Both the position numbers and the translations under genes were made by a program. Below, one piece after another: positions 31,372 to 46,158 of a stretch of DNA of 59,634 nucleotides. Positions within the stretch are counted from its first letter, which is position 1; each line of letters opens with the position of its first letter. The DNA lies in NCBI GenBank assembly GCA_009929445.1, contig SAAL01000008.1:1-59634 (forward strand). The letters run 5' to 3'. This DNA is from Bacteroidia bacterium. Lineage in GTDB: Bacteria > Bacteroidota > Bacteroidia > Bacteroidales > Paludibacteraceae. A model generated the notes under the pieces. The model was not told where the DNA came from. It worked only from the letters and a program-made list of their open reading frames with translations, and searched no databases.

Positions 31372-31397
31372 AGTAAGCAATCATAACAATAAAAAGA

Positions 31398-31440
31398 AAG
31401 CAGTTACAAAAAAATAATTTTTTGTAACTGCTTTTTTTTT
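31398..31440. terminator. metG terminator
   Basis: AAGCAGTTACAAAAAA and TTTTTTGTAACTGCTT form a long perfect hairpin followed by a T-run; usable on both strands, so it also serves the converging tRNA-Met gene. Confidence 0.88.
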
Positions 31441-31685: not shown

Positions 31686-31760
31686 ATAAATCTGAAACTT
31701 TTTTCATTTTGGAGATTCATTTAGAAGGAACAATATGGATTATTGTACATTATTCAAACG

Positions 31761-31790
31761 AAATAGTCTCTTTTTAAAAAGAGACTATTT
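31761..31790. terminator. Terminator of the giant-protein operon
   Basis: AAATAGTCTCTTTTT followed directly by its exact reverse complement AAAAAGAGACTATTT, 60 bp past the stop of the 1496 aa gene. Confidence 0.82.
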
Positions 31791-31849
31791 CTTTAGAATC
31801 AGACCTGTTTTCTATGAATTGCCTGAATGAATTGATAGTTGAATTCAGT

Positions 31850-34800
31850 TTATCTCTTCACATCAAAAACATCCGCATACACTACCCTGTTGGTTTCTTC
31901 GGGGTGTTCAAGTCTTTCTTTATAGGCATCAGGAATGTTATTCAGACTTTGCGGCCCCAGTTCGATTTCTTCAACCACTACCTGAAATGAACCGGTTCGG
32001 TAGGCTTCCGGGAGTGTGATGTTATCATTGATTTCAAAGTAGTTGTCGCCCTTCATGTTTCGTCCAACTTCGAATGTCCACATATCGGGATTTTGCTGGC
32101 CGGTTTTAGAACTATCAATCAGAATGCCCTGCTCGCTGCCGGTTGAATCCGTTTGCATGACAGTGACTTTTATCACTTCACGAATTCCAAATTTGGACGA
32201 TTTATGACTGTAAGTCGGGCCGCTGAGCCTGAAATTCATTACCGTGTTTTTCCCTGCTTGCGACAGGCCGATGGAAGCTTTTCGCTCCGGCACCATTTGA
32301 ATCATGCCTCCCATGACCACATTCGACAGGCAAACATCTGTATTATTTTCGCGAAGCGAATGGGCCTGATAGCGGGCTAAAGCCAGTTTTATAAACGGAA
32401 AATACATGTTGGCGGTATTCAGCGCAATATCGGCATACCACAACTGCTTTTCCCTGTCGAACGTAACGGGATAAGCCACAGCAGTAGCTTTCACGTCCTC
32501 TTTTCCGGGATATACTAATCCTTTTTCCACCACAGGATTGTACCTGAAATCGGCAGGGAGCGGACTTGATTTTCCGGGAAGCTCCGAAACAAACAACGGA
32601 TCGGCGCCCCAGTGTGTGTAAATATCGGTATAAACAGGACTTTGAACCATCGTGGTGACCAAACTGGCAGTTCCGGAAGAATCGGGAAGTACGACAGCCA
32701 GTTTTTCTTCTTCGCCGCTTGAGAACCACGGACGTTTGAGGTACACCCGAAGCACTCCGCCTTTACGAATATGAGTCATAACGCCTCCCTGATTGGTTTT
32801 TTGCCATTCAAAAGCAGGAATTACATAATCTATTTCGGGTTTATCGGGCCGGGCAGTGCTCAGAATGTTCACTTTACCAACGTTGGATTCTCTGACAAAT
32901 GAAATCTCCGGTTTTTTCTTCTGGATATTGGTAAAATACGCGCTGTAACGCGACGATGCCACGATGGAGTAATTTACCCAGCGGTGACGCGTATTGCCGA
33001 AAGCATGTTCAAGCGGATAATGGCGCAAATCAAGCATTTTGACCAGATTCAGCCGGGATTCTTCCAGGTCAAATCGCAGCGTATTCACCACATTTCGCGA
33101 AGGTTCGGCTGCTTTTTGCTGCTGAACGTTGGCCAGTCTTTCGGCCTGGAACTTGTAGATATTGTTTATTTTGAGCGAACCGGGTTGCACGTCAAATTGC
33201 CGGATAGAAGCCGGTTCGGTTTTCCAGCGCGGTTCTCTCAGTTGCAGTCTGTCCGGTTTCAGGCCGGGTTTGGGGTCATTTATTGTTCCAACGGTCACCG
33301 TTTTGTCGTGGTAATAAATATCAATTTCGGGAATTGAATCGTTGAAACTTTTTTCTTTTATTTCCACAGAAATGCCATCGTCGAGCGGTTCGGTCCAGCT
33401 GGCTTTCAGTTCGGCGGAGTCGGTACTTTCTCCGTGAACATTAAACCGCACGTTCAGAAAAGCGGAAGTATCATCGTAATCGCGTTCGGGTACAACCTGC
33501 AGTAAAGCAGGCGCTTCAACCGGTTGCTGCACAGCATGTACAAGTTCAAACGTGCGCGAAGGAGTAATCATCCAGTGCTGACCGCTTTTAGCAATTTTCT
33601 CGATTTCAGCCAGTTTTGCGCCGGCATCACTTTTCACCAGCTGCCAAACGGCCGAAAGCTTTTTCATGTCTTCCTCACGCCAGAAAGAGCTTATTTTCAG
33701 CTTCATACGTTGTCCTTTGGGCAATTTGACGGTAAAGGTGCGCTTCGTTCCGTCCCAATTACCTGCCAGGGCACCTTCTTCCAGCTTTATCCGGATGGCT
33801 TGCGTATCGTACCAGTCTTCGGGAATGTTAACGCTGTTCGTATTATCGGGAGTGAGTTCTTCTTTGGTGAAAAAACTGAACATACGCGGCGAAAAATCTT
33901 CGGTATGCGTATTTTCACTCTCTGTATCGGCAAATATGGCTATTCCGGCAGCCATCGGATCGGGCAGATAAATAATCCGGGCCTGATCGTCGGAATAAAT
34001 TTTTTCGGTATTATCCTCGTTGCGCTCGTACAAGCCTTCGTGTGAGATGATTATCTGATAAATGGCTTTTGCTTTTTGCGGGTCGCCAAAGGCTTTTTCG
34101 AACTTGCCGTGAGTTTCGGCCATCAGCTGGCTGTTTTTCGGAGGCAACAGATAGCGCAGTGAGCGTCCTTTGGAGTCCTGCCCGTCGGCCCGGTTTTCAT
34201 TTTCATATTTCTCCACATCAACATCAAAATTGCTTCTGACAACCATTTGTTCGAGGTATTCACCGTCGCGCAACTGATTGCCTACCAATACGATAGGACT
34301 TGCCAACGGTTCGTAACGCAGATAAACAATGTTGCTGCAAGAAGTTTCCGCCTGAGATTCGGATTCAAATTCGAGCGGAAGGCTGTTGCCTGCCATATCC
34401 ACTGTCCGGACTCTGATACGGTATGATTTCCCGAAACGAAGTTTGGGCAATGTTCCGGGCACCAGTTCCGATTGTGCATTCAGTTTGAAATCGAGTGTGG
34501 GATCAAAAACGTATTTCTTCATTTCAACCTGGCGCGAGCTGCTCAGAAAATCGTGTCTGTCCCGCGGATTTTTGGCTGTATGCTCTTCCGAATCATTGAT
34601 AGCCAGGCCCGGTTTTTCCACCGAAAGGCTCCATCCTTCCCAGCGGGCAAGTGTTTCGGGCACATAAATATTTTCCTTGTCGTTTTCTTTTTCTATAATG
34701 GCCATTTCCACATATCCTTCGTCAGGACTGATGTTTTCTATCGGATGTTCCACCCCGGCTTCATCGAACCAGGAATAGCTCATTTTCCGTTTGTGGAGCG

Positions 34801-36340
34801 AATACCATTTTCCGGGATTGTCTTCGTAAGCAATATCCATGCGGTAGGCCATCACCAGATCATCAGAATACAATATTTCTTCCGGCAGCAACAGGTTTTT
34901 GATTTTCAAATCCACTTTGGCATTGTCTATCAGCATTTTCTGGAAACTGGAATTTCGTTGTAATTTCACAGCCACATGTCCGCTCATTCCGTTTCTGATC
35001 AGCGCAATTCCGGCCGAACGCATGGCATGCAAACCTTCGCGGGGCGGCACTTCCAGCAGTTTCATTTTTTCTACGGGTTTCATTTTTTGAAAAGTGAAAA
35101 CCGGTTTGAATGTAGTTTCAGACTGAGCTATGTTTTGCACCCGCGCGGTACTGTTAGCAGTTTTAACGTTGCTCACCCCTGCATCGGCTCTGGCTGCTGT
35201 TGCCAGCTGAGGTTTCAACTTGAGGTTTTGAAGAGCCGTTTCTGCGCGGAGAGTAGCTGCAGACCGCATTTGGAAATAATCGGCTACCTGAATTATTTTT
35301 TCGTTCACGGTTTGTGCCGTTTTGAGAGCCATACCGTCGGTGTCCATTTGCACCACCGAGAAATCAGACGTATTTATTTTCACAAAACCCCTGCTGAGCA
35401 CGCTCCCCGATGTGTCGGCTGCATAAAATCCTTTGGCAGTAAGGCTGTAGGCTGTTTTTGGTGCCGAAATCTTCGTGCCGGCTTCGCTGAACGCAATTTC
35501 ACCGGGCACTACCTGAATGGTGCCTGAAGCCGGAATAGCTGAATCATAAGGGATTACGAAATCGAGAATGAAGCCAAGCCGTCGCATGAGAGCCGGATAG
35601 CTGTTCATGACCGAAAGTATGTTGTGAAACTCAAACTTCGGTTTTCGGATCACTAATTTATCCACTATTTTTTTATTCTGAAAGTGAAAATCTTTCAATT
35701 GCACGAAGTCTGCAGCGGGTTCTGCCTGCTTTTTGAAAGGGATAAACCGATTGTTTTTCAACAAGGTACGCATATTATTCACCTGCATTTCATTTTTCAG
35801 GATAAAAGGTTTTTGCGTCGCCGTTTTGCTGCGCGTTTGTGCTTTTTGTGCATTTTCAGTGTTCAGCACGTTAGCATCTATCTGAATATCAGCTATTATG
35901 CCCATTCTGTCCGGATCGATAAAATGAGATGCCGGCACAAGCTGCACGGGACTTTCGATGGCTATTTTTTTCACCTGATCGAGCAAAAAATCGCGAATAT
36001 GCGACACCGGAAAAGACCGGATGGGTTTCAGCTGCAGGTTTTCCATTTCATATTTTTCAATCTGAATGTTTGAATGGAAAATGCTCCTGTAGAGGTCCTT
36101 GTCGATGACCGATTTGTTGAAAATGGCCGGTATATCCGATTTCAAGCCGCTTATCCGGAATGTGAATTCTGTGTTTTGTATTTTTTCTGCCCAGTTGTAC
36201 ATGTCGGGAGCGTCACCCAGTTTCATGGTTGCAGCGCTTTTCAAATGCGGCGACACATATACCGAAACTTTCAGGTATTGCTCTCTGTCTTGTTCTATAC
36301 GCTGAACGGGCAACGTTGTAAAAACCAGTTCTTGTATCAT
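31850..36340 (-). CDS. Giant hypothetical protein (1496 aa), partner of the 1673 aa protein
   Basis: Unrecognised. No signal peptide or membrane helix is visible; it begins MIQELVFTTLPVQRIEQDRE and ends VVYADVFDVKR. Composition suggests many beta-sandwich-like segments with helical spacers. Motif-like blocks that look conserved are KSYRIRVRTVDMAGN (near 645), HRWVNYSIVASSRY (near 1120) and LRVYLKRPWFSSGEEEKLAV (near 1205). An Ala/Gln/Thr-rich disordered stretch lies around 360-430. Second gene of a two-gene unit, 77 bp after the Tat-signal giant, followed by a strong terminator. Base and codon use look like the host's. I have an impression of similar paired giants in other phyla, but could not check. 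No function is claimed. Confidence 0.72.
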   Translation of the reverse strand: MIQELVFTTLPVQRIEQDREQYLKVSVYVSPHLKSAATMKLGDAPDMYNWAEKIQNTEFTFRISGLKSDIPAIFNKSVIDKDLYRSIFHSNIQIEKYEMENLQLKPIRSFPVSHIRDFLLDQVKKIAIESPVQLVPASHFIDPDRMGIIADIQIDANVLNTENAQKAQTRSKTATQKPFILKNEMQVNNMRTLLKNNRFIPFKKQAEPAADFVQLKDFHFQNKKIVDKLVIRKPKFEFHNILSVMNSYPALMRRLGFILDFVIPYDSAIPASGTIQVVPGEIAFSEAGTKISAPKTAYSLTAKGFYAADTSGSVLSRGFVKINTSDFSVVQMDTDGMALKTAQTVNEKIIQVADYFQMRSAATLRAETALQNLKLKPQLATAARADAGVSNVKTANSTARVQNIAQSETTFKPVFTFQKMKPVEKMKLLEVPPREGLHAMRSAGIALIRNGMSGHVAVKLQRNSSFQKMLIDNAKVDLKIKNLLLPEEILYSDDLVMAYRMDIAYEDNPGKWYSLHKRKMSYSWFDEAGVEHPIENISPDEGYVEMAIIEKENDKENIYVPETLARWEGWSLSVEKPGLAINDSEEHTAKNPRDRHDFLSSSRQVEMKKYVFDPTLDFKLNAQSELVPGTLPKLRFGKSYRIRVRTVDMAGNSLPLEFESESQAETSCSNIVYLRYEPLASPIVLVGNQLRDGEYLEQMVVRSNFDVDVEKYENENRADGQDSKGRSLRYLLPPKNSQLMAETHGKFEKAFGDPQKAKAIYQIIISHEGLYERNEDNTEKIYSDDQARIIYLPDPMAAGIAIFADTESENTHTEDFSPRMFSFFTKEELTPDNTNSVNIPEDWYDTQAIRIKLEEGALAGNWDGTKRTFTVKLPKGQRMKLKISSFWREEDMKKLSAVWQLVKSDAGAKLAEIEKIAKSGQHWMITPSRTFELVHAVQQPVEAPALLQVVPERDYDDTSAFLNVRFNVHGESTDSAELKASWTEPLDDGISVEIKEKSFNDSIPEIDIYYHDKTVTVGTINDPKPGLKPDRLQLREPRWKTEPASIRQFDVQPGSLKINNIYKFQAERLANVQQQKAAEPSRNVVNTLRFDLEESRLNLVKMLDLRHYPLEHAFGNTRHRWVNYSIVASSRYSAYFTNIQKKKPEISFVRESNVGKVNILSTARPDKPEIDYVIPAFEWQKTNQGGVMTHIRKGGVLRVYLKRPWFSSGEEEKLAVVLPDSSGTASLVTTMVQSPVYTDIYTHWGADPLFVSELPGKSSPLPADFRYNPVVEKGLVYPGKEDVKATAVAYPVTFDREKQLWYADIALNTANMYFPFIKLALARYQAHSLRENNTDVCLSNVVMGGMIQMVPERKASIGLSQAGKNTVMNFRLSGPTYSHKSSKFGIREVIKVTVMQTDSTGSEQGILIDSSKTGQQNPDMWTFEVGRNMKGDNYFEINDNITLPEAYRTGSFQVVVEEIELGPQSLNNIPDAYKERLEHPEETNRVVYADVFDVKR

Positions 36341-36417
36341 AATATATTTATTTTCAATAGGTTAATAACAATTTATAAGTTCAATTTCCTACGGGTTATA
36401 AATCCCTGTTTCATTCA

Positions 36418-39400
36418 TTATTCGCTGAATGCCAGGCAGTATTGTTCCCAGTCTTCTTCAAAAATCATTTCTTGAAATTTCGGATCGCCGCCGCTGCCGG
36501 CCAGCGTACGCCTAACAGTGACAGAAACAGTCTTGCTGAAAAACAGCACGGACACCTTTACTTTGAGCGTGGCTGAGCCTTCGAGTTTCTGAACTTTTCC
36601 GCCAGCAATGACTGCATGAAGTTCCAGGTAAAACTCAAGCGAAACATGGATAAGCCCGAGAATGGAAAGTTTGCCATTGATACGCAGGTAGGCGGAGAGA
36701 TCAGCCTGGTTTTGCGTGATGACTCTGCTGTCAGGCAGGGTTATTTGTACGTTTTTTGATTTGTAATAAATGCCTCCCATTACCGATACACTGCCTGAAG
36801 CCACTCCCACGTTGAGCGAAATGGCTGCTCCGAACTCAAAGGCCGCTTCGATGGATTCAAGTCCGTCGAGTCGGGTTACGAGTTTGATAAATCCGCCTCC
36901 GCCGAAACAGGAAATGGTGAGCATAAACGGATTTTCGCGGGTGCAGAAATAGAAACCAATGGTGAGCGGGTCGCCGGTGAAGGGTAGATTGATGTACGCA
37001 CCCAGCGATATGTTGGCAATCATGCACATGCCCATTTCAAAATTAGGCAGAGCGAGGGTGTAACCGGCTTTGATGCCCGAAGCTGTGAGTTCAAGGTACG
37101 GCCCGTTGCCATCGTCGGAAAATCCGCTGGACGGAATGATGCTGTTCAGACTGTTGATGAAATCGAGTGCACCGGTAAATTCCATGGGTACGTCGCCCAT
37201 ATCTACTTTCACACCGCTTTTGCCTGATGTGCCGGTTTCGAACCGTAACGATTTGAAAATAACGGCAATACAATCGGCCACTTCTATTCTGAAATTATCA
37301 AACCGCGCTACGGAAGTGAGCTTGGGTGCTGCGCTGAGTTCAAACGGTTTTTCGAAATGTGTGTCGATTTGTAATGCTTTCTTCGGATCGGTAATTTTGA
37401 CAGTAAGAATATCCGGGAAAATTTCTTTCTCACTTTTTCCCAAATCCGGCTGCCATTTGTATTGCACATGAAATGCATCGTCGGTCATATAGGTTTTCAG
37501 ATTCGGGATGCGCGGAACGGAACTATTCATCAGATTCCGTAGTTTGGTCACTTCGCCGAGAATATTATTTTTGACAGTGGCAAGCTCCGCTTCCAGATCC
37601 TGTCGAATTTTGTTTATTTCATTTTGAAGCTGACTTTGAGTGTAGTTGATGTTGTTTACAGCCGCCTTTTCCAACTCCAGTGCTTTGGCTTCAGCCAGTT
37701 TTATAGCATTTCTGAATTGTTCTATTTTCTGCTGAATGGCTTTTATCTGATTGATAAAATCGTCCATGGAGCCTGCAAGATTAGATGAATCCAGATCAAA
37801 CAGCGAGAAAATATCAATCACGCCAAAGATTTTGGCCGACATGATTTTATCCAGCGTTTCAAAAACTTTAGCTGCATTGAAAGCCATGTTCATAGCATCG
37901 TCAATGGCGCCTCCTACTGTACCGTGCAAGCGGCTCAATCCGGTTATTGCCATGTTTGGAGTCAGAAATCCGCCCGCCTTGTCGCTGCCGCCTGAGAAAT
38001 CAAGCGCGGCATTTTCTACCGAAGCAAAGACATGACCGGGATTCGAATCGTCCACCAGGGAAATTTTCACCGCTTCGTCGTTTCCGGTGAGTTGATTGAC
38101 AGCTTCCAGTTTCACCAGCGCATGCTGAATGGTAGGGCGGAAGCAGATTTCGCCAACACCGGGAGATGGAAATGAAACCGCACCGAACTTTATTTCGCGG
38201 GTTTCGTACACAGTGTCGCCTTCAATCAGGCTTTCGGCATACGAAATGTTATCGCCGCTGAAAATCAGGTTGTTGTAAATTGTTTTAGCCAAATAATCTT
38301 GCACCACTGGCATGATTTTGTTTGTATCTCTTGCTACAATATTACCTACAAACGCCAGCGGAATTTTTTTCCGGTGCTCGGCTCCTTCTTTATCGGTAAA
38401 AATCACATCAAACTGAAATGGTTTGCCCAATGAGTGTATGTAGAAGTTATAACCTCCCAAACCTGCATCGATAGTGGTAGTTTGAGGATTATCTATATCG
38501 GGTGTATTGGAGTTGATTATTTCTACTGCCTGAAACGGGAATTTCAGGAAATCGCCCTGCGGAATGGTGCGATCATACACCACTTCCTTTTGCAGCACCA
38601 CAATGTACATACGCTGCCGGTTTACAGCCGAACGGTTTTCTTTCATAAACTTTCGCTCGGTGATTTTCACCAGTGCCGCCCGATGCCCGAAGGGGAAAAG
38701 ATACCCTTCTTTCACTATTTTCACATAATGATCGCGGCCTAACGTGGCGAAATGCTCCCACTCAATAATATCCAGGGCCGATGTCGGCACATCAAAGAAA
38801 GCGTGCCAGTCCAGATAGGCTCCCAGCGGTGTGAGCATAAGCTTATTGACGGGCACTGTAGCCGGCTGATAACCGGGAATATCAGTATAGTTGGAGGTAG
38901 TGTGAACCAATATATGCCGGTCGCTGGCATCAAGCGAAGCTCTGAACGGCAATGGATTGTTCACGTCGGGAACTGATTTGTAATTTAAATTGGCATCGAA
39001 AGCCCAAAGTGCTCTTATTGTACGCAAATACGGCATTGCATCCGTAATTTTTCCGTCTTTAAGTCTTACACCCAGCTTTGTATGCCACAATTCGTAGATT
39101 TCGCCGGAATTTTGCTCCTGCAACCTCTGAAGAACGATGCGATGCTCAAATCCACCTGTTTGGTTGGGTGAAATGTACATCAGCGCAGGTGCTTCGATGC
39201 AGGTGCTGTCTTCGGGAACCGGTCCGGGTTTGAGCATAGCTTTTTGTGCCTGCTGCAATGAATTACTCAGCAACGAATCGGAAACAGATGCAGAAAAAAC
39301 GTTGTTTACAGTAGCAGCATCATATTGCTTTATTCTGTCGGCCCGCATTACGTTGGTCTGATTGAGTTTCAGACCGTAAGCGAGGTCTTGTTTTTGGTTT

Positions 39401-41439
39401 ACAGCTACGGTTTTATTTTTACCTACTACCGAAACCCGCGAATATTTCGGATTTTTGATAATGCTTTCGCGATCCAGCTTGAGCGGAACACGCACCCAGG
39501 CGCGCGGATCCACGCGCAGTTCGAATTTAGACCAATCGAGCAATTCATTGATATTCAGCGCGAATGATTCGCTTCCGGCCGGATATTCGAACACCAGCCG
39601 GCTTCGGTAAGCCCTGAGATGTCTGACAGGTAAACTGACAACATCGGGAGCTTTTTTATCCGGATCGGGAATTTTATTTTCTTCAAAAAAAGCTTCCTCA
39701 AGCGTATGCTGAGTTTGTATTCGTATGATTACCAGACCTTTTGTCCCTTTTTTCTGAAGCGAAAGCGTATTTTTATTGCCTACAGTAGCGAGAATGAAAT
39801 TTCGGAATTCAAACTCCAGTAAAAGCAAATCTTCCGGTCGCAATATCCTGAATTTTAACTCATTAAGCGTAAGCTGAATATCTTTCCCCACCGTAGAAAT
39901 TTCGGGCGGCTTTGCATTTACTGCTTTTCTTTTGTTGGTAACGACGGGATCCTGCTTTTCGGGCTGAGTGGTTCTGCTACCGTCCGGCGTCTGAACTTTT
40001 GGTTGTTCGGTTTGCTCTTTTTTCTTATCGTCCGGCTGAATGACTTTCAGAATTCCGGTTCGTCTTTCGGGAGTAGTTGTTTTTTTTATTACCGGCTGAC
40101 TCTGAGTACTTTTTTGGGTTTGTGTCTGCGTGGACGGATTGGCTGTAGTTTTATTTATTCTCAGCAGGTTGGTTCGTCTCACAGCCGTATCCTGAGCATT
40201 TGTGGTGATGGCATTCACCTCTTCGGGCAATGGCATGCTTTCGTCGTTGCAGCGGGCAAGTACAATGTTCACCGGTTTTTCGAGCACATCGGGCAGTGTC
40301 AGTGCATTGATTATCAATGGTTTGAAAGCAGTGAGCCGGGGTGCATAGCGATATGAACGAATATCGGAAGCATAACCTACTGCTTCAAAATCGGGTAAGT
40401 TGTTGTCAGACCCGATTTGGAAAGAGCCTATTTTGTTGTTGATCCACTGTCCGGGTGCCGACAAAGCTGCCAGATACACTTCGGGTTGTAGATTTTCGTT
40501 GTTTTCAGAGAAAAAAAACAGCTTATTGAATTTAAAATCGTGGCCTTTTTGAAATTTATGCCTGAAAGATAAAGTTTCACCCGTATGATTCACCCAAAGC
40601 GACTGATGGTGAATTCCGGTTTTATCATTCCACATCAGAAAATTCAAATCAGGGTTGGCTCCGGAATAATTCATGGAATAATCACCCGCAAAACGCAAAT
40701 CAGACAAAAAGCGGCTCCAGGCAGTGAAACCGGGCAGTTTTACATTCAGCGAGCCTGCCGGAGCGGTTATGAATGATTTGAAGGTTTGACCTCTGCCGGT
40801 GAGCACCAGAGCAGAAGTATGGTAGGTTTTACCCGAATATCGGAGTGTAACAGCCTCATCTCCTTCAAAATACATATTCCAGCGTGTATCCATCATGAAA
40901 TTCACTTCGCCCTCAATCCTGATATTACTTTGTGAACTTAGACTGCCAAATGTCAAATTTGCACTTATTTTTTGTTCTACAAGCAGCTGATTGTCAAGCC
41001 AGTCCGTAAAATTTACCTGAAGATTGACTCCAAACTGCGGAATTTCCATTTTCATGCGCCAGCCGAAAAGACTTTCATAAATGCTGGCTGTAACATCAAA
41101 AGATTGAAATGAGCCATTCAGCGTCAGGTTGTTCATTTTGATAAAATAAACATCCCTGATTTTCTCCACGCTCACTTTGGCACCGCGTGTAAAATGTGAA
41201 ACAGGAAATTGCCAGGCAATGCGGGCATTTCTTTTTACGATAAAGCCATCGGCAGAGGAAATAATGTGGAAGGGCTCTCCTACCACCTTATCGATGGACT
41301 TCACCACAGGATTGATAGCCAAGGCGCTCAATCCGATATTTTTCAGAAACCTGCGTCTGTCGAGCGTTCTGTGCTGCTTCTCAGGTTGTGTGAATACGTT
41401 GAAACGTGATTCCCTGAGATTGAAATGTTTGAAATTCAT
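36418..41439 (-). CDS. Giant hypothetical protein (1673 aa) with twin-arginine signal
   Basis: Unrecognised. The N-terminus has D-R-R-R-F-L-K-N-I-G (residues 27-36) followed by GLSALAINPVV, a good twin-arginine translocation signal, so it may be exported folded. Then a beta-rich region (about 55-410), a Thr/Gln/Pro/Lys-rich linker (about 420-515), a beta region with ELWHTKLGVRL (near 783) and LGRDHYVKIVKEGYLFPFGH (near 900), a coiled coil (about 1222-1305; QIKAIQQKIEQFRNAIKLAE), and a Gly-rich C-terminal beta domain (about 1400-1650; EAAFEFGAAISLNVGVASGS). No type IX secretion tail is evident. First gene of the unit with the 1496 aa protein. Role unknown; a folded export substrate of structural type is one guess. 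Confidence 0.72.
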   Translation of the reverse strand: MNFKHFNLRESRFNVFTQPEKQHRTLDRRRFLKNIGLSALAINPVVKSIDKVVGEPFHIISSADGFIVKRNARIAWQFPVSHFTRGAKVSVEKIRDVYFIKMNNLTLNGSFQSFDVTASIYESLFGWRMKMEIPQFGVNLQVNFTDWLDNQLLVEQKISANLTFGSLSSQSNIRIEGEVNFMMDTRWNMYFEGDEAVTLRYSGKTYHTSALVLTGRGQTFKSFITAPAGSLNVKLPGFTAWSRFLSDLRFAGDYSMNYSGANPDLNFLMWNDKTGIHHQSLWVNHTGETLSFRHKFQKGHDFKFNKLFFFSENNENLQPEVYLAALSAPGQWINNKIGSFQIGSDNNLPDFEAVGYASDIRSYRYAPRLTAFKPLIINALTLPDVLEKPVNIVLARCNDESMPLPEEVNAITTNAQDTAVRRTNLLRINKTTANPSTQTQTQKSTQSQPVIKKTTTPERRTGILKVIQPDDKKKEQTEQPKVQTPDGSRTTQPEKQDPVVTNKRKAVNAKPPEISTVGKDIQLTLNELKFRILRPEDLLLLEFEFRNFILATVGNKNTLSLQKKGTKGLVIIRIQTQHTLEEAFFEENKIPDPDKKAPDVVSLPVRHLRAYRSRLVFEYPAGSESFALNINELLDWSKFELRVDPRAWVRVPLKLDRESIIKNPKYSRVSVVGKNKTVAVNQKQDLAYGLKLNQTNVMRADRIKQYDAATVNNVFSASVSDSLLSNSLQQAQKAMLKPGPVPEDSTCIEAPALMYISPNQTGGFEHRIVLQRLQEQNSGEIYELWHTKLGVRLKDGKITDAMPYLRTIRALWAFDANLNYKSVPDVNNPLPFRASLDASDRHILVHTTSNYTDIPGYQPATVPVNKLMLTPLGAYLDWHAFFDVPTSALDIIEWEHFATLGRDHYVKIVKEGYLFPFGHRAALVKITERKFMKENRSAVNRQRMYIVVLQKEVVYDRTIPQGDFLKFPFQAVEIINSNTPDIDNPQTTTIDAGLGGYNFYIHSLGKPFQFDVIFTDKEGAEHRKKIPLAFVGNIVARDTNKIMPVVQDYLAKTIYNNLIFSGDNISYAESLIEGDTVYETREIKFGAVSFPSPGVGEICFRPTIQHALVKLEAVNQLTGNDEAVKISLVDDSNPGHVFASVENAALDFSGGSDKAGGFLTPNMAITGLSRLHGTVGGAIDDAMNMAFNAAKVFETLDKIMSAKIFGVIDIFSLFDLDSSNLAGSMDDFINQIKAIQQKIEQFRNAIKLAEAKALELEKAAVNNINYTQSQLQNEINKIRQDLEAELATVKNNILGEVTKLRNLMNSSVPRIPNLKTYMTDDAFHVQYKWQPDLGKSEKEIFPDILTVKITDPKKALQIDTHFEKPFELSAAPKLTSVARFDNFRIEVADCIAVIFKSLRFETGTSGKSGVKVDMGDVPMEFTGALDFINSLNSIIPSSGFSDDGNGPYLELTASGIKAGYTLALPNFEMGMCMIANISLGAYINLPFTGDPLTIGFYFCTRENPFMLTISCFGGGGFIKLVTRLDGLESIEAAFEFGAAISLNVGVASGSVSVMGGIYYKSKNVQITLPDSRVITQNQADLSAYLRINGKLSILGLIHVSLEFYLELHAVIAGGKVQKLEGSATLKVKVSVLFFSKTVSVTVRRTLAGSGGDPKFQEMIFEEDWEQYCLAFSE

Positions 41440-42170
41440 AGGTTTTGGGATTTTAGGATAGTCGATTCATGAAGGGTAATTTTATGAAGTAAAATGTTGC
41501 AGGGAAACGGCTATTTTTTTCACAGCTTGAAAAAAAAGATTTCTTGAAGTTCTTATCTGATAATGAATTACTTAATAATCATTATCCTTCATGTAGATAA
41601 ACAATAATCCGGATAGAATTATTGCCGGTATACAGCACTTACAGTCGGGCTTGATCAGCCCCGAAATCGGTTTCGCAACAGGCGCAACTTACCTGATTTT
41701 TTCACTGCTAACTCGCTATCGGACCGATAACGGGCTGCAGAAAAAACTCTACGGTAAGTAGCTCCATCTGGAAAATTTTCTTTGTCGGAATGACATTCAG
41801 AGGTAAAAGGGATAACAGGCAAGGTAACAGCCTGATTATAAATAGATTGACATAACCTTACTGGCATTGTCGAAATCTGATATTCAGGAAGAAAGCAATA
41901 TTTAGAAAACATGTTGTTCATAAATATATACCCGGTTAACTTCCAGCAAATTTTTCGGAAATAATAATTCCCAAAAATAAGACTTTTCTTTTGAATATTT
42001 GTTTTTTTTGAACATAATATTTCAAAATTCATTTTATAACATAGATAAATAATCATTTTTCATTTTTTGCAGCCTGTAAATGCATTATTTTCGGAATAAA
42101 TACACATTATTCCAAAACTTTTATTTTTATTTTTAAAGTAATTCCAACAAACCAATAAAAAATCAATCTC
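41440..42170. other. 731-bp intergenic region upstream of the giant-protein unit
   Basis: Must hold the promoters for the divergent giant-protein unit and the beta-barrel gene. GATAATGA (41559-41566) and TCATTATC (41579-41586) form an exact 8-bp inverted repeat, a possible operator, about 120 bp upstream of the giant gene. A 133-codon minus-strand frame (41655-42056) lacks any protein-like features and is not called. No TAnnTTTG promoter stands out. Confidence 0.45.
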
Positions 42171-43178: not shown

Positions 43179-44378
43179 CTAATCAACCAACCACTCCTTT
43201 GCCAGCCCGCCTTCGGCCGTTTCTTTGTAGAGATGAGGCAGGTCATGACCGGTTTTCTTCATTACTTCCACCACTTTGTCAAAACTGATGAGGTGTTTCC
43301 CATCGGAGAGCATCGATTTCAGGTTGGCATCCAGTGCACGAAGCGAAGCGAATGCATTCCGCTCAATACAAGGCACCTGCACCAATCCGCACACAGGGTC
43401 GCACGTCATGCCGAGGTGATGCTCAAGGCCCATTTCGGCAGCATATTCTATCTGCTGCGGACTTCCGCCGAAAAGCTGACAGGAAGCAGCCGAAGCCATG
43501 GAGCAGGCAGAACCTACTTCGCCCTGACAACCTACCTCCGCTCCCGAAATGGAAGCATTTGTTTTGATTACATTGCCGAATAAACCTGCAGTAGCGAGGG
43601 CCTGAAGAATGTGCTTATCCGACATTTCGTGATACGTTTTCAGGTGATACAGAATGCCCGGTATCACCCCCGAAGAACCGCACGTGGGTGCCGTCACCAC
43701 TAGTCCGCCGCTGGCATTCTGCTCGGACACAGCCATAGCGTAAGACATTATCAGACAGCGGTTTTGCAAACTGACTTTATAACCTTTCGCTTTTATCCAG
43801 TATGATGCAGCTTTGCGTCGCAGATACAATTCACCGGGCAGCACTCCGTCGGCTTCGAGTCCGTCTCTCACCGATTGTTGCATGGCTTTCCAGATTTCGT
43901 TCAGAAAATCCCAGATGTCTTTTCCTTCCCTATCCTGCACGTACTCCCAGTAAGTTTGTCCCCGTTTTTCGATCCAGGGCATTATTTCAGCTATAGTTGA
44001 ATGTTCGTAGATTCGGTTTTCTTCATTTACAATCGTTTCATCCACTATTTTTCCTCCGCCAACGCTATATACCACCCAGTCTTTTTGTACAAGCCCATCA
44101 GCATCTAGTGCTTCGAATTTCATCCCGTTGGTGTGAAACGGTAATACAATTTCGGGCAGCCAGATGAATTCCACTGCTTTGGGTTGTAAGGTTTCGGCTA
44201 TGGTTGCGTCGGTGAGATGGCCTCTGCCGGTAGCAGCCAGGCTGCCATACAGGCTCACGCGGTACGAAACAGCTTCGGGTGTCTGAGCCACAAATCGTTC
44301 GGCTGCAAATCGCGGTCCCATCGTATGACTGCTCGAAGGCCCGTGACCTATGCGGTATAATTCTCTGATTGATTCCAT
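43179..44378 (-). CDS. sdaA: L-serine ammonia-lyase (single-chain)
   Basis: Iron-sulfur L-serine dehydratase converting serine to pyruvate and ammonia. The 399 aa protein joins the beta domain (start ESIRELYRIGHGPSSSHTMG) and alpha domain in one chain. Cysteines of the 4Fe-4S site lie in TAPTCGSSGV, CQGEVGSACSMAS and CDPVCGLVQVPC. Together with GlyA it defines serine use in this genome. Gene stands alone between a terminator and a repeat-bearing gap. Confidence 0.95.
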   Translation of the reverse strand: MESIRELYRIGHGPSSSHTMGPRFAAERFVAQTPEAVSYRVSLYGSLAATGRGHLTDATIAETLQPKAVEFIWLPEIVLPFHTNGMKFEALDADGLVQKDWVVYSVGGGKIVDETIVNEENRIYEHSTIAEIMPWIEKRGQTYWEYVQDREGKDIWDFLNEIWKAMQQSVRDGLEADGVLPGELYLRRKAASYWIKAKGYKVSLQNRCLIMSYAMAVSEQNASGGLVVTAPTCGSSGVIPGILYHLKTYHEMSDKHILQALATAGLFGNVIKTNASISGAEVGCQGEVGSACSMASAASCQLFGGSPQQIEYAAEMGLEHHLGMTCDPVCGLVQVPCIERNAFASLRALDANLKSMLSDGKHLISFDKVVEVMKKTGHDLPHLYKETAEGGLAKEWLVD

Positions 44379-44910
44379 TTTAATTCAGGATTGTTTTGAT
44401 TGATGAATGTAGAGTATTATTTTTTAGCCTTAACTTTCAGGTAGGCTTTTCTCTATTCAACTACAAAATTAGGAATAAAATCAATACCAAAACTTCACTT
44501 TCAGTATTTATAACTAAAATGACAATTTAGCTGTCCTTCAGGGATGAACATGTTAATATTTTTCTTAATTTTGTCAAACTTTTGGAATTTATTTATTCTA
44601 AAAAATTAAACTTTCGCAAGTATATAAATGCTTGAAATACTGATTAATATAAAATCGCATATATTGACTATCAGATGTTTATACAAAAATGATCTTTCAA
44701 ATATTCTTATCATTCGACCCTGCCTGCGGCAGGCAGGCTCACCCCTAACCCCTCTCCCCAAGGAGAGGGGGACAGGTCAACGCAAGTAGAAAATTGTAAG
44801 CATATTTGTAAATGCTTTAATTACAACTACTTACATTTGCGAAAGTTAATTAAAAAATAAGTCATAATAATGCTATTACAAACTATTTTACAATAAACTA
44901 CAAACTATTT
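44379..44910. other. AT-rich intergenic region with repeats
   Basis: 532 bp without genes. Apart from the GC-rich palindromes at 44719-44771 the sequence is very AT-rich, with several TTTCGCAAGT/ACTTACATTTGCGAAAGT-like short inverted words (44610-44620 and 44829-44846). TACATTTG at 44832-44839 may be a distant promoter element for the DUF1015 gene. Confidence 0.4.
44719..44771. repeat. Composite palindromic repeat
   Basis: CCTGCCTG-CGG-CAGGCAGG (44720-44738) is followed by CTCACCCCTAA and CCCCTCTCC-CCAA-GGAGAGGGG (44749-44770). The second half, reversed, matches the repeat inside the flavin reductase gene (7773-7800); the first shares its core with 8396-8404. Confidence 0.7.
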
Positions 44911-46158
44911 ATGGCAACAATTAAACCGTTCAAAGGCATTCGTCCTCCTAAAAATCTGGTTGAAAAAGTGGCTTCACGCCCCTACGATGTGTTAAATTCT
45001 GACGAAGCACGGGCAGAAGCTGCAGGCAATCCGTATTCACTTTATCACATCATCAAGCCGGAAATAGATTTTCCGGTAGGCACTGACGAACACGAAGACA
45101 AAGTTTACACGAAAGCGGCCGAAAATTTTGCCAAATTCCGCTCAAATGGCTGGCTTGTGCAGGATGAGAACGAAAAATATTACGTTTACGCTCAAACAAT
45201 GAACGGGCGCACTCAGTACGGATTGGTAGTATGCGCTTATGTGGACGATTACATGACCGGAAAAATCAAAAAACACGAACTTACCCGCCGCGATAAGGAA
45301 GAAGACCGCATGAAACACGTTCGGGTGAATAATGCCAACATCGAACCGGTATTTTTTGCTTATCCTCACCACGAAGAACTGGATAATATTGTAAAAGATA
45401 TTTCAAAAAACACTCCGGAATACGATTTCGTAGCCGAATTTGACGGTTTCGGTCACACTTTCTGGAAAATTGACGATGAAAAAACAATAGCACAAATTAC
45501 CGGAATTTTTGCGGAGATTCCATCACTTTATATTGCCGACGGACACCACCGGAGCGCCGCCGCAGCACTGGTTGGGAATGAAAAACGCCTGCAAAACCCG
45601 AACCACATAGGTAAGGAGGAGTACAACTATTTTATGGCTGTGTGCTTCCCCGATAATCAGCTTACCATCATTGACTACAACCGCCTGGTGAAAGATTTGA
45701 ACGGATTGACTGATGAAGAATTTCTTAATAAGCTGAAAGAAAATTTTCAAGTGGAAGAAAAAGGTACTGACATTTTCAAACCGGAAAGCCTGCACCATTT
45801 CTCACTCTATCTGTCAGGAAAATGGTATTCACTCATTGCCAAAGAAGGTACCTACAACGACAACGATCCGATTGGAGTGCTGGATGTAACCATTTCGTCC
45901 AACCTGATTCTGGATGAAATTCTCGGCATCAAAGACCTGCGTAGCGACAAGCGGATTGATTTTGTGGGTGGCATACGTGGACTGGGCGAACTGAAACGCC
46001 GCGTGGACAGCGGTGAGATGAAAGCAGCACTGGCGCTATATCCCGTTTCGATGAAGCAGCTGATCGACATTGCAGATTCGGGCAACATCATGCCTCCTAA
46101 AACCACCTGGTTTGAGCCCAAACTACGTTCGGGACTTGTAATTCACGATTTAGAATAA
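44911..46158 (+). CDS. DUF1015 family protein
   Basis: A 415 aa cytoplasmic protein starting TIKPFKGIRPPKNLVEKVAS, with RPYDVLNSDEARAEAAGNPYS and IADGHHRSAAAALV, the typical DUF1015 (SpoOJ/ParA-ParB-like repressor in older annotations) blocks. In many Bacteroidetes it follows serC-serA; those are absent here, though sdaA is divergent upstream. No enzymatic role is established. Followed by a terminator. Confidence 0.9.
   Translation: MATIKPFKGIRPPKNLVEKVASRPYDVLNSDEARAEAAGNPYSLYHIIKPEIDFPVGTDEHEDKVYTKAAENFAKFRSNGWLVQDENEKYYVYAQTMNGRTQYGLVVCAYVDDYMTGKIKKHELTRRDKEEDRMKHVRVNNANIEPVFFAYPHHEELDNIVKDISKNTPEYDFVAEFDGFGHTFWKIDDEKTIAQITGIFAEIPSLYIADGHHRSAAAALVGNEKRLQNPNHIGKEEYNYFMAVCFPDNQLTIIDYNRLVKDLNGLTDEEFLNKLKENFQVEEKGTDIFKPESLHHFSLYLSGKWYSLIAKEGTYNDNDPIGVLDVTISSNLILDEILGIKDLRSDKRIDFVGGIRGLGELKRRVDSGEMKAALALYPVSMKQLIDIADSGNIMPPKTTWFEPKLRSGLVIHDLE

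Follow-up and report, generated by a model that had tools for sequence, protein, structure and literature searches.

A patchily distributed pair of giant bacterial genes outside known families, with a Tat-type signal on one partner

Two adjacent giant genes, here named A and B, form an obligate, co-evolving pair. The pair has no counterpart in the libraries searched. The genes lie in the window, i.e., the whole 59,634-nucleotide stretch of DNA analyzed here, and their parts are collected in Table 1. An earlier, sequence-only reading of this DNA had described two giant ORFs in one unit with a 77-bp gap, preceded by a 731-bp upstream region. The coordinates proved exact, both frames are uninterrupted, and the upstream region was confirmed (positions 41440-42170); it holds one ORF of 133 residues, for which no family was found.

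Table 1. Features of the A-B gene pair (positions in the window)
Feature	Coordinates	Strand	Description
Gene A	36418..41439	-	1673 aa; first gene of the pair; ORF exact, uninterrupted
Gene B	31850..36340	-	1496 aa; second gene of the pair; ORF exact, uninterrupted; no recognizable export signal
Intergenic gap A/B	36341..36417	-	77 bp
A, Tat-type N-terminus	41281..41367	-	Residues 25-53, TLDRRRFLKNIGLSALAINPV...
A, N-terminal extra domain	40255..41283	-	About residues 53-395
A, conserved core	38008..39927	-	About residues 505-1144; beta-rich; contains the conserved GRDHYV..PFGHRA..TERKF region
A, helical hairpin	37522..37779	-	About residues 1221-1306; helices 717-758 and 764-802 in model numbering
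A, C-terminal amphipathic long-stranded beta domain	36493..37509	-	About residues 1311-1649; geometry partly like outer-membrane barrels
B, conserved N-terminal domain	35951..36340	-	Residues 1-130
B, core	32117..35707	-	Residues 212-1408; several predicted fibronectin-III/Ig-like sandwiches and helical inserts
Hairpin 3' of B, possible terminator	31760..31791	-	Perfect 14-bp stem

Neither product had been placed in a family by the earlier reading, and the library searches agree, distant members included. For A and B, searches of Pfam, NCBIfam, PHROGs, PADLOC and PDB sequences gave no match beyond chance; profiles made from 50 relatives matched no solved structure, and distant members such as a 3052-residue Sinorhizobium A belonged to no Pfam or NCBIfam family. 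All annotated relatives that we saw were labeled "hypothetical protein". Weak library matches, including 3HCDH_N, fibrinogen, Mu Gam and Cas12c, were far below the cut-off and were discarded; those of A fell mostly in its helical region. A known anti-phage defense system was also rejected, the PADLOC matches being weak only and situated in the same helical region. The two proteins are not detectably paralogous (hhalign probability 0.5%). Searches of the openly licensed literature yielded no description of the pair, and one may exist elsewhere; such a paper, or a match by fold in another library, could lower the novelty of the pair.

To assess how widely the pair occurs, we scanned one genome per species (84,980 species in all) with B as the query, since the complete A alignment was too divergent to scan this collection. 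In all, 300 B relatives were confirmed, from about a dozen phyla. The best 80 of these included members of Bacteroidota, Pseudomonadota, Actinomycetota, Aminicenantota, Chloroflexota, Balneolota, Bacillota, Cyanobacteriota, Armatimonadota, Chlorobiota, Thermodesulfobacteriota and candidate division WS1. The expectation that the two genes co-occur across phyla was borne out: A was directly upstream of B on the same strand at 87 of 94 loci with B, and the same order and orientation held at all 20 further loci from evenly drawn genomes. Among the seven exceptions, five B genes were at contig ends, one locus (L013) was a truncated remnant in a disturbed region, and one Chlorobiota genome (G543, locus L088) had B alone with two copies of A on other contigs, the only intact separation seen. 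A short remnant of A among transposases on a Paraburkholderia sabiae plasmid (L149, 14001-14210), with no annotated giant gene adjoining, is a decayed copy of A.

Pairwise distances of A and B were strongly correlated (r = 0.955, and 0.68 for pairs more than 60% divergent, vs 0.12 for the best of 1000 permutations), a correlation that is inflated by shared ancestry. The two genes have travelled together; for a putative A-B complex formed before export, their co-divergence is at most indirect evidence. An all-against-all comparison of neighbors together with Pfam tallies revealed no third gene recurring across lineages, only lineage synteny and common families, so the unit consists of two genes. 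The suggestion that this is an undescribed two-protein system has therefore held up: homology to a described system was not found, the genes are adjacent and in the same order almost everywhere, and their divergence matches.

Distribution of the pair was patchy. Relatives were detected in 18 of 395 evenly drawn genomes of Bacteroidota, 7 of 296 of Actinomycetota, 5 of 398 of Pseudomonadota and 1 of 398 of Bacillota, each count including the genome used as the center; without it the numbers are 17/394, 6/295, 4/397 and 0/397, respectively. Protein searches also placed the pair on plasmid records of Streptomyces, Rhizobium, Cupriavidus, Diaphorobacter, Sinorhizobium, Agrobacterium and Ruegeria. 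We infer that this patchiness may be due to horizontal transfer. The closest relative found (66% in B) came from a metagenome-assembled Paludibacter genome. Bacteroidota formed one group in the B tree, so a recent jump between phyla is not required for the copy in the window.

Gene A occurs in forms of different length. The N-terminal extra domain is common to A of Bacteroidota, Desulforhopalus, Bradyrhizobium, Zipacnadia, WS1, Balneolota and some Comamonadaceae, and is missing from the short forms. A giant variant of the pair was found on alphaproteobacterial plasmids (Sinorhizobium, Agrobacterium, Ruegeria and Rhizobium; L010, L011, L012 and L014), with A of about 3043-3311 residues, in all four cases with a Tat-type N-terminus; B had 1766-1899 residues in three of them and was split into two ORFs in L011. 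In the copy of Agrobacterium vitis, dpdE/dpdF were located a few genes away.

The sequence-only reading had regarded the frames as intact, host-like in codon use and maintained, and codon comparison agrees. Between B and its Paludibacter relative, 841 codon changes were at third positions vs 255 at second positions, and synonymous sites were saturated (pS 0.77, pN 0.21), which indicates that the frame is maintained; gene A had the same pattern when compared with two other relatives. Both genes are under purifying selection. GC3 was 0.50 for B and 0.48 for A, within the range of neighboring genes (about 0.29-0.55). The terminator assigned to the unit was upheld in part: a real hairpin is present at the site (-20.6 kcal/mol; z = -6.1 vs shuffles), but its U-tract is poor and a consensus terminator scan does not list it. 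A further 20-pair AT-rich stem, terminator-like on both strands, lies between metG and tRNA-Met (31394-31437), and an Rfam scan of the window detected two tRNAs and nothing else.

The pair had also been placed in core surroundings. This is true of its neighbors but not of the pair itself, which was missing from every one of the 149 other genomes sampled outwards from the genus, seven of them congeneric. In same-genus relatives metG and the serine dehydratase gene are not neighbors, and the pair is located at a synteny break; an empty site is therefore not demonstrable there. The serine dehydratase gene and the next gene (43179-46158) are together in two of these relatives (L109 and L111), with metG not nearby.

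Predicted structures were examined for A residues 505-1673 and B residues 212-1408 (AlphaFold, mean pLDDT 82). For these models, whose examination the earlier reading had proposed, neither Foldseek nor VIA-align returned a whole-protein relative; their lists barely cover the middle of A and parts of B, where the lack of a match does not argue for a new fold. In the model of A, a helical hairpin is followed by a C-terminal region of long, strongly amphipathic strands. This region is similar in geometry to CymA, FhaC, porins and LptD (about 160-270 residues, Z 10-12.7), a partial resemblance with many high rmsd values. The best of these alignments covered 196 residues within about positions 1435-1649 (Z 12.7, rmsd 7.5 A). 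Although A thus shares amphipathic strands and part of its geometry with outer-membrane beta-barrels such as LptD, it differs from them in having a Tat-type signal or none instead of a Sec signal, a helical C-terminus and homologs in monoderms, and the match is only partial. The missing Sec signal and the lack of a terminal barrel strand with a final aromatic residue argue against an outer-membrane beta-barrel protein. The C-terminal domain of A is well conserved in monoderms, e.g., Paenibacillus and Lentzea, and the last element of the model is a helix, which together make an ordinary outer-membrane barrel unlikely.

The model of B aligns to tandem fibronectin type III (FN3) domains, and its stretch YRIRVRTVDMAGNS resembles that of FN3/Ig-like domains. 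However, B differs from multidomain proteins of this kind in having helical inserts, large unmatched parts and no Pfam FN3 match. The best match, over 354 residues (rmsd 15 A), had a Z of 7.0, a value also reached by common arrangements, and the similarity to fibronectin/Ig-like folds may be one of common arrangement only.

Evidence on cellular location came from the N-terminus of A, which in the window has the Tat-type signal LDRRRFLKNIGLSALAINPV (residues 26-45), a twin-arginine motif followed by a hydrophobic stretch. A strict pattern detected a Tat motif in 40 of 78 full-length A homologs; lineages with it are Bacteroidota, Aminicenantota, Balneolota, Lentzea, Armatimonadota/WS1, a Dehalococcoidia genome and the giant alphaproteobacterial forms. 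No signal was seen at the N-termini of B in the loci inspected. The genome of the window has genes for TatC (E = 8.1e-62) and TatA (E = 2.8e-16) side by side on contig C139. In addition, TatA-type genes were found directly beside the pair at four loci of three distant lineages. In two Lentzea species the gene follows B by 10 and 12 bp, in Sinorhizobium it follows B by 49 bp, and in Zipacnadia it precedes A by 296 bp. All four were above the Pfam cut-off, and A had a Tat motif in each case. Given a few tatA genes per genome, chance alone should put about 0.03 of them within 300 bp of some 85 loci, vs three independent placements observed. The two Lentzea genomes have three TatA/B-type genes each, indicating that the linked tatA is additional. 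A pattern scan of the fetched flanks revealed no other convincing tatA; this pattern missed the annotated Sinorhizobium gene and possibly others. Directly abutting co-directional genes with Sec-type signals were present at L011, L012 and L072 (and, by eye, at L008), which fits a function outside the inner membrane.

On balance we slightly favor, from these sequence features and for the copy in the window, export of A and B as a folded complex through Tat, with B hitchhiking on the signal of A. The two proteins would be obligate subunits of a giant complex of about 350 kDa (one of each, by length), which would fold in the cytoplasm and cross on the twin-arginine signal of A, with signal-less B as the hitchhiker. 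Outside the inner membrane, the amphipathic beta domain of A would most likely contact or insert into a membrane or bind lipid, and the fibronectin/Ig-like sandwiches of B could serve as a scaffold or binding surface. We also favor a role of the complex on or near a membrane, or as a scaffold in the envelope, though with clearly less confidence than for its formation and export. Tat hitchhiking of signal-less partners has been established for hydrogenases and formate dehydrogenases (PMC10924467). A-B is like these heterodimers (Ni-Fe hydrogenases, formate dehydrogenases) in that only one partner has a twin-arginine signal and the genes are adjacent and obligate. It differs from them in that no cofactor domain was found, no sequence relation exists and the proteins are much larger; co-export here is a proposal.

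The pair could instead form an exported or cell-associated structural assembly, e.g., a surface layer, matrix, cell-wall or spore component, in which the sheets of A stack and do not insert into a membrane. We consider this unlikely, if a serious contender. The large size and beta-rich folds are consistent with it, as are the invariant residues of both proteins, which are mostly Gly, Pro, Trp and Arg and form no catalytic-looking signature. Presence of the pair in the monoderms Paenibacillus and Lentzea, in which a role at an outer membrane is impossible, also argues for such an assembly, whereas the patchy distribution at low frequency is unlike that of a main structural layer. The "structural, surface or matrix" role offered by the earlier reading remains a guess.

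At some loci hydrolase genes adjoin the pair, raising the question of a toxin-like or pore-forming binary factor directed against other cells, in which the sheet of A would insert, B would recognize the target and the hydrolases would be effectors. They are of different families: Tle1-like phospholipases (by Pfam at L068:13912-16284 and by motif at L084:197-1258), a subtilase (L049:5578-6879), a trypsin-like gene below the cut-off (L086:5866-6921), an astacin (L008:18579-19595), a patatin (L005:19590-22109), and a Zn-phospholipase C together with an M35 peptidase (L012). These adjacent proteases and phospholipases would fit a membrane-active or processed system and are possible processing or effector genes. 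The long amphipathic strands and barrel-like geometry of A, the FN3/Ig-like B and the sporadic spread, often on large plasmids, would also suit a membrane-active factor. However, no toxin, PADLOC or PHROG family was detected, no immunity-like or other third gene recurs, and the C-terminus of A, rather than being variable, is among its best conserved parts. Such a factor appears improbable.

The N-terminus of A might also be a mere anchor, or no Tat signal at all, with the pair having a cytoplasmic or cytoplasm-facing role like that expected of its signal-less relatives. About half of the A homologs have no recognizable signal, including most Pseudomonadota, Paenibacillus, Cyanobacteriota and several Actinomycetota; those pairs either act in the cytoplasm or exit by another route. 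The Tat reading does not account for the many signal-less versions in Pseudomonadota and Paenibacillus, and they count against it. In many signal-less proteins of Pseudomonadota (L064, L070, L079, L081, L085, L090 and L093), a K/A/P-rich low-complexity N-terminus replaces the signal. In the window, no clear AxA cleavage site was seen by eye after the hydrophobic stretch of A, and this protein may stay anchored and uncleaved. A cytoplasmic role is nevertheless doubtful for the pair, since twin arginines are retained in nearly all Bacteroidota A proteins and in several other phyla, and TatA-type genes are directly beside the pair in three lineages. Finally, a part in a phage, prophage or contractile injection structure, which large beta-sandwich proteins and weak structural similarity of B to phage FN3 proteins might suggest, is very improbable: there was no PHROG family, viral contigs contained no relative of B and phage records none of A, and no phage genes recurred among the neighbors.

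Tat-dependent export of the folded pair remains the reading we slightly favor. Genes of the Tat machinery linked to a substrate are represented by phoD-tatAd-tatCd of Bacillus subtilis. As in that case, a TatA-type gene is located beside a presumed substrate; in A-B loci, however, it is tatA only, with no tatC seen beside it, in some lineages only and at varied positions. To our knowledge, a folded complex of about 350 kDa would approach or exceed the size of any Tat cargo described, which counts against this reading. The complete scheme, a giant binary system in which such a complex of roughly 350 kDa passes folded through Tat, with its own TatA in some lineages and a beta domain acting on membranes, is tentative and, taken as a whole, rather unlikely.

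A two-gene unit of roughly 2,200-5,200 residues that is present in about a dozen phyla and belongs to no curated family in the libraries searched represents a sizeable blind spot of annotation. If passage of the folded pair through the membrane is real, it would probe how large a Tat cargo can be and explain why a second TatA is kept next to a single substrate. Given the operon context of the pair, both questions can be tested directly in culturable bacteria.
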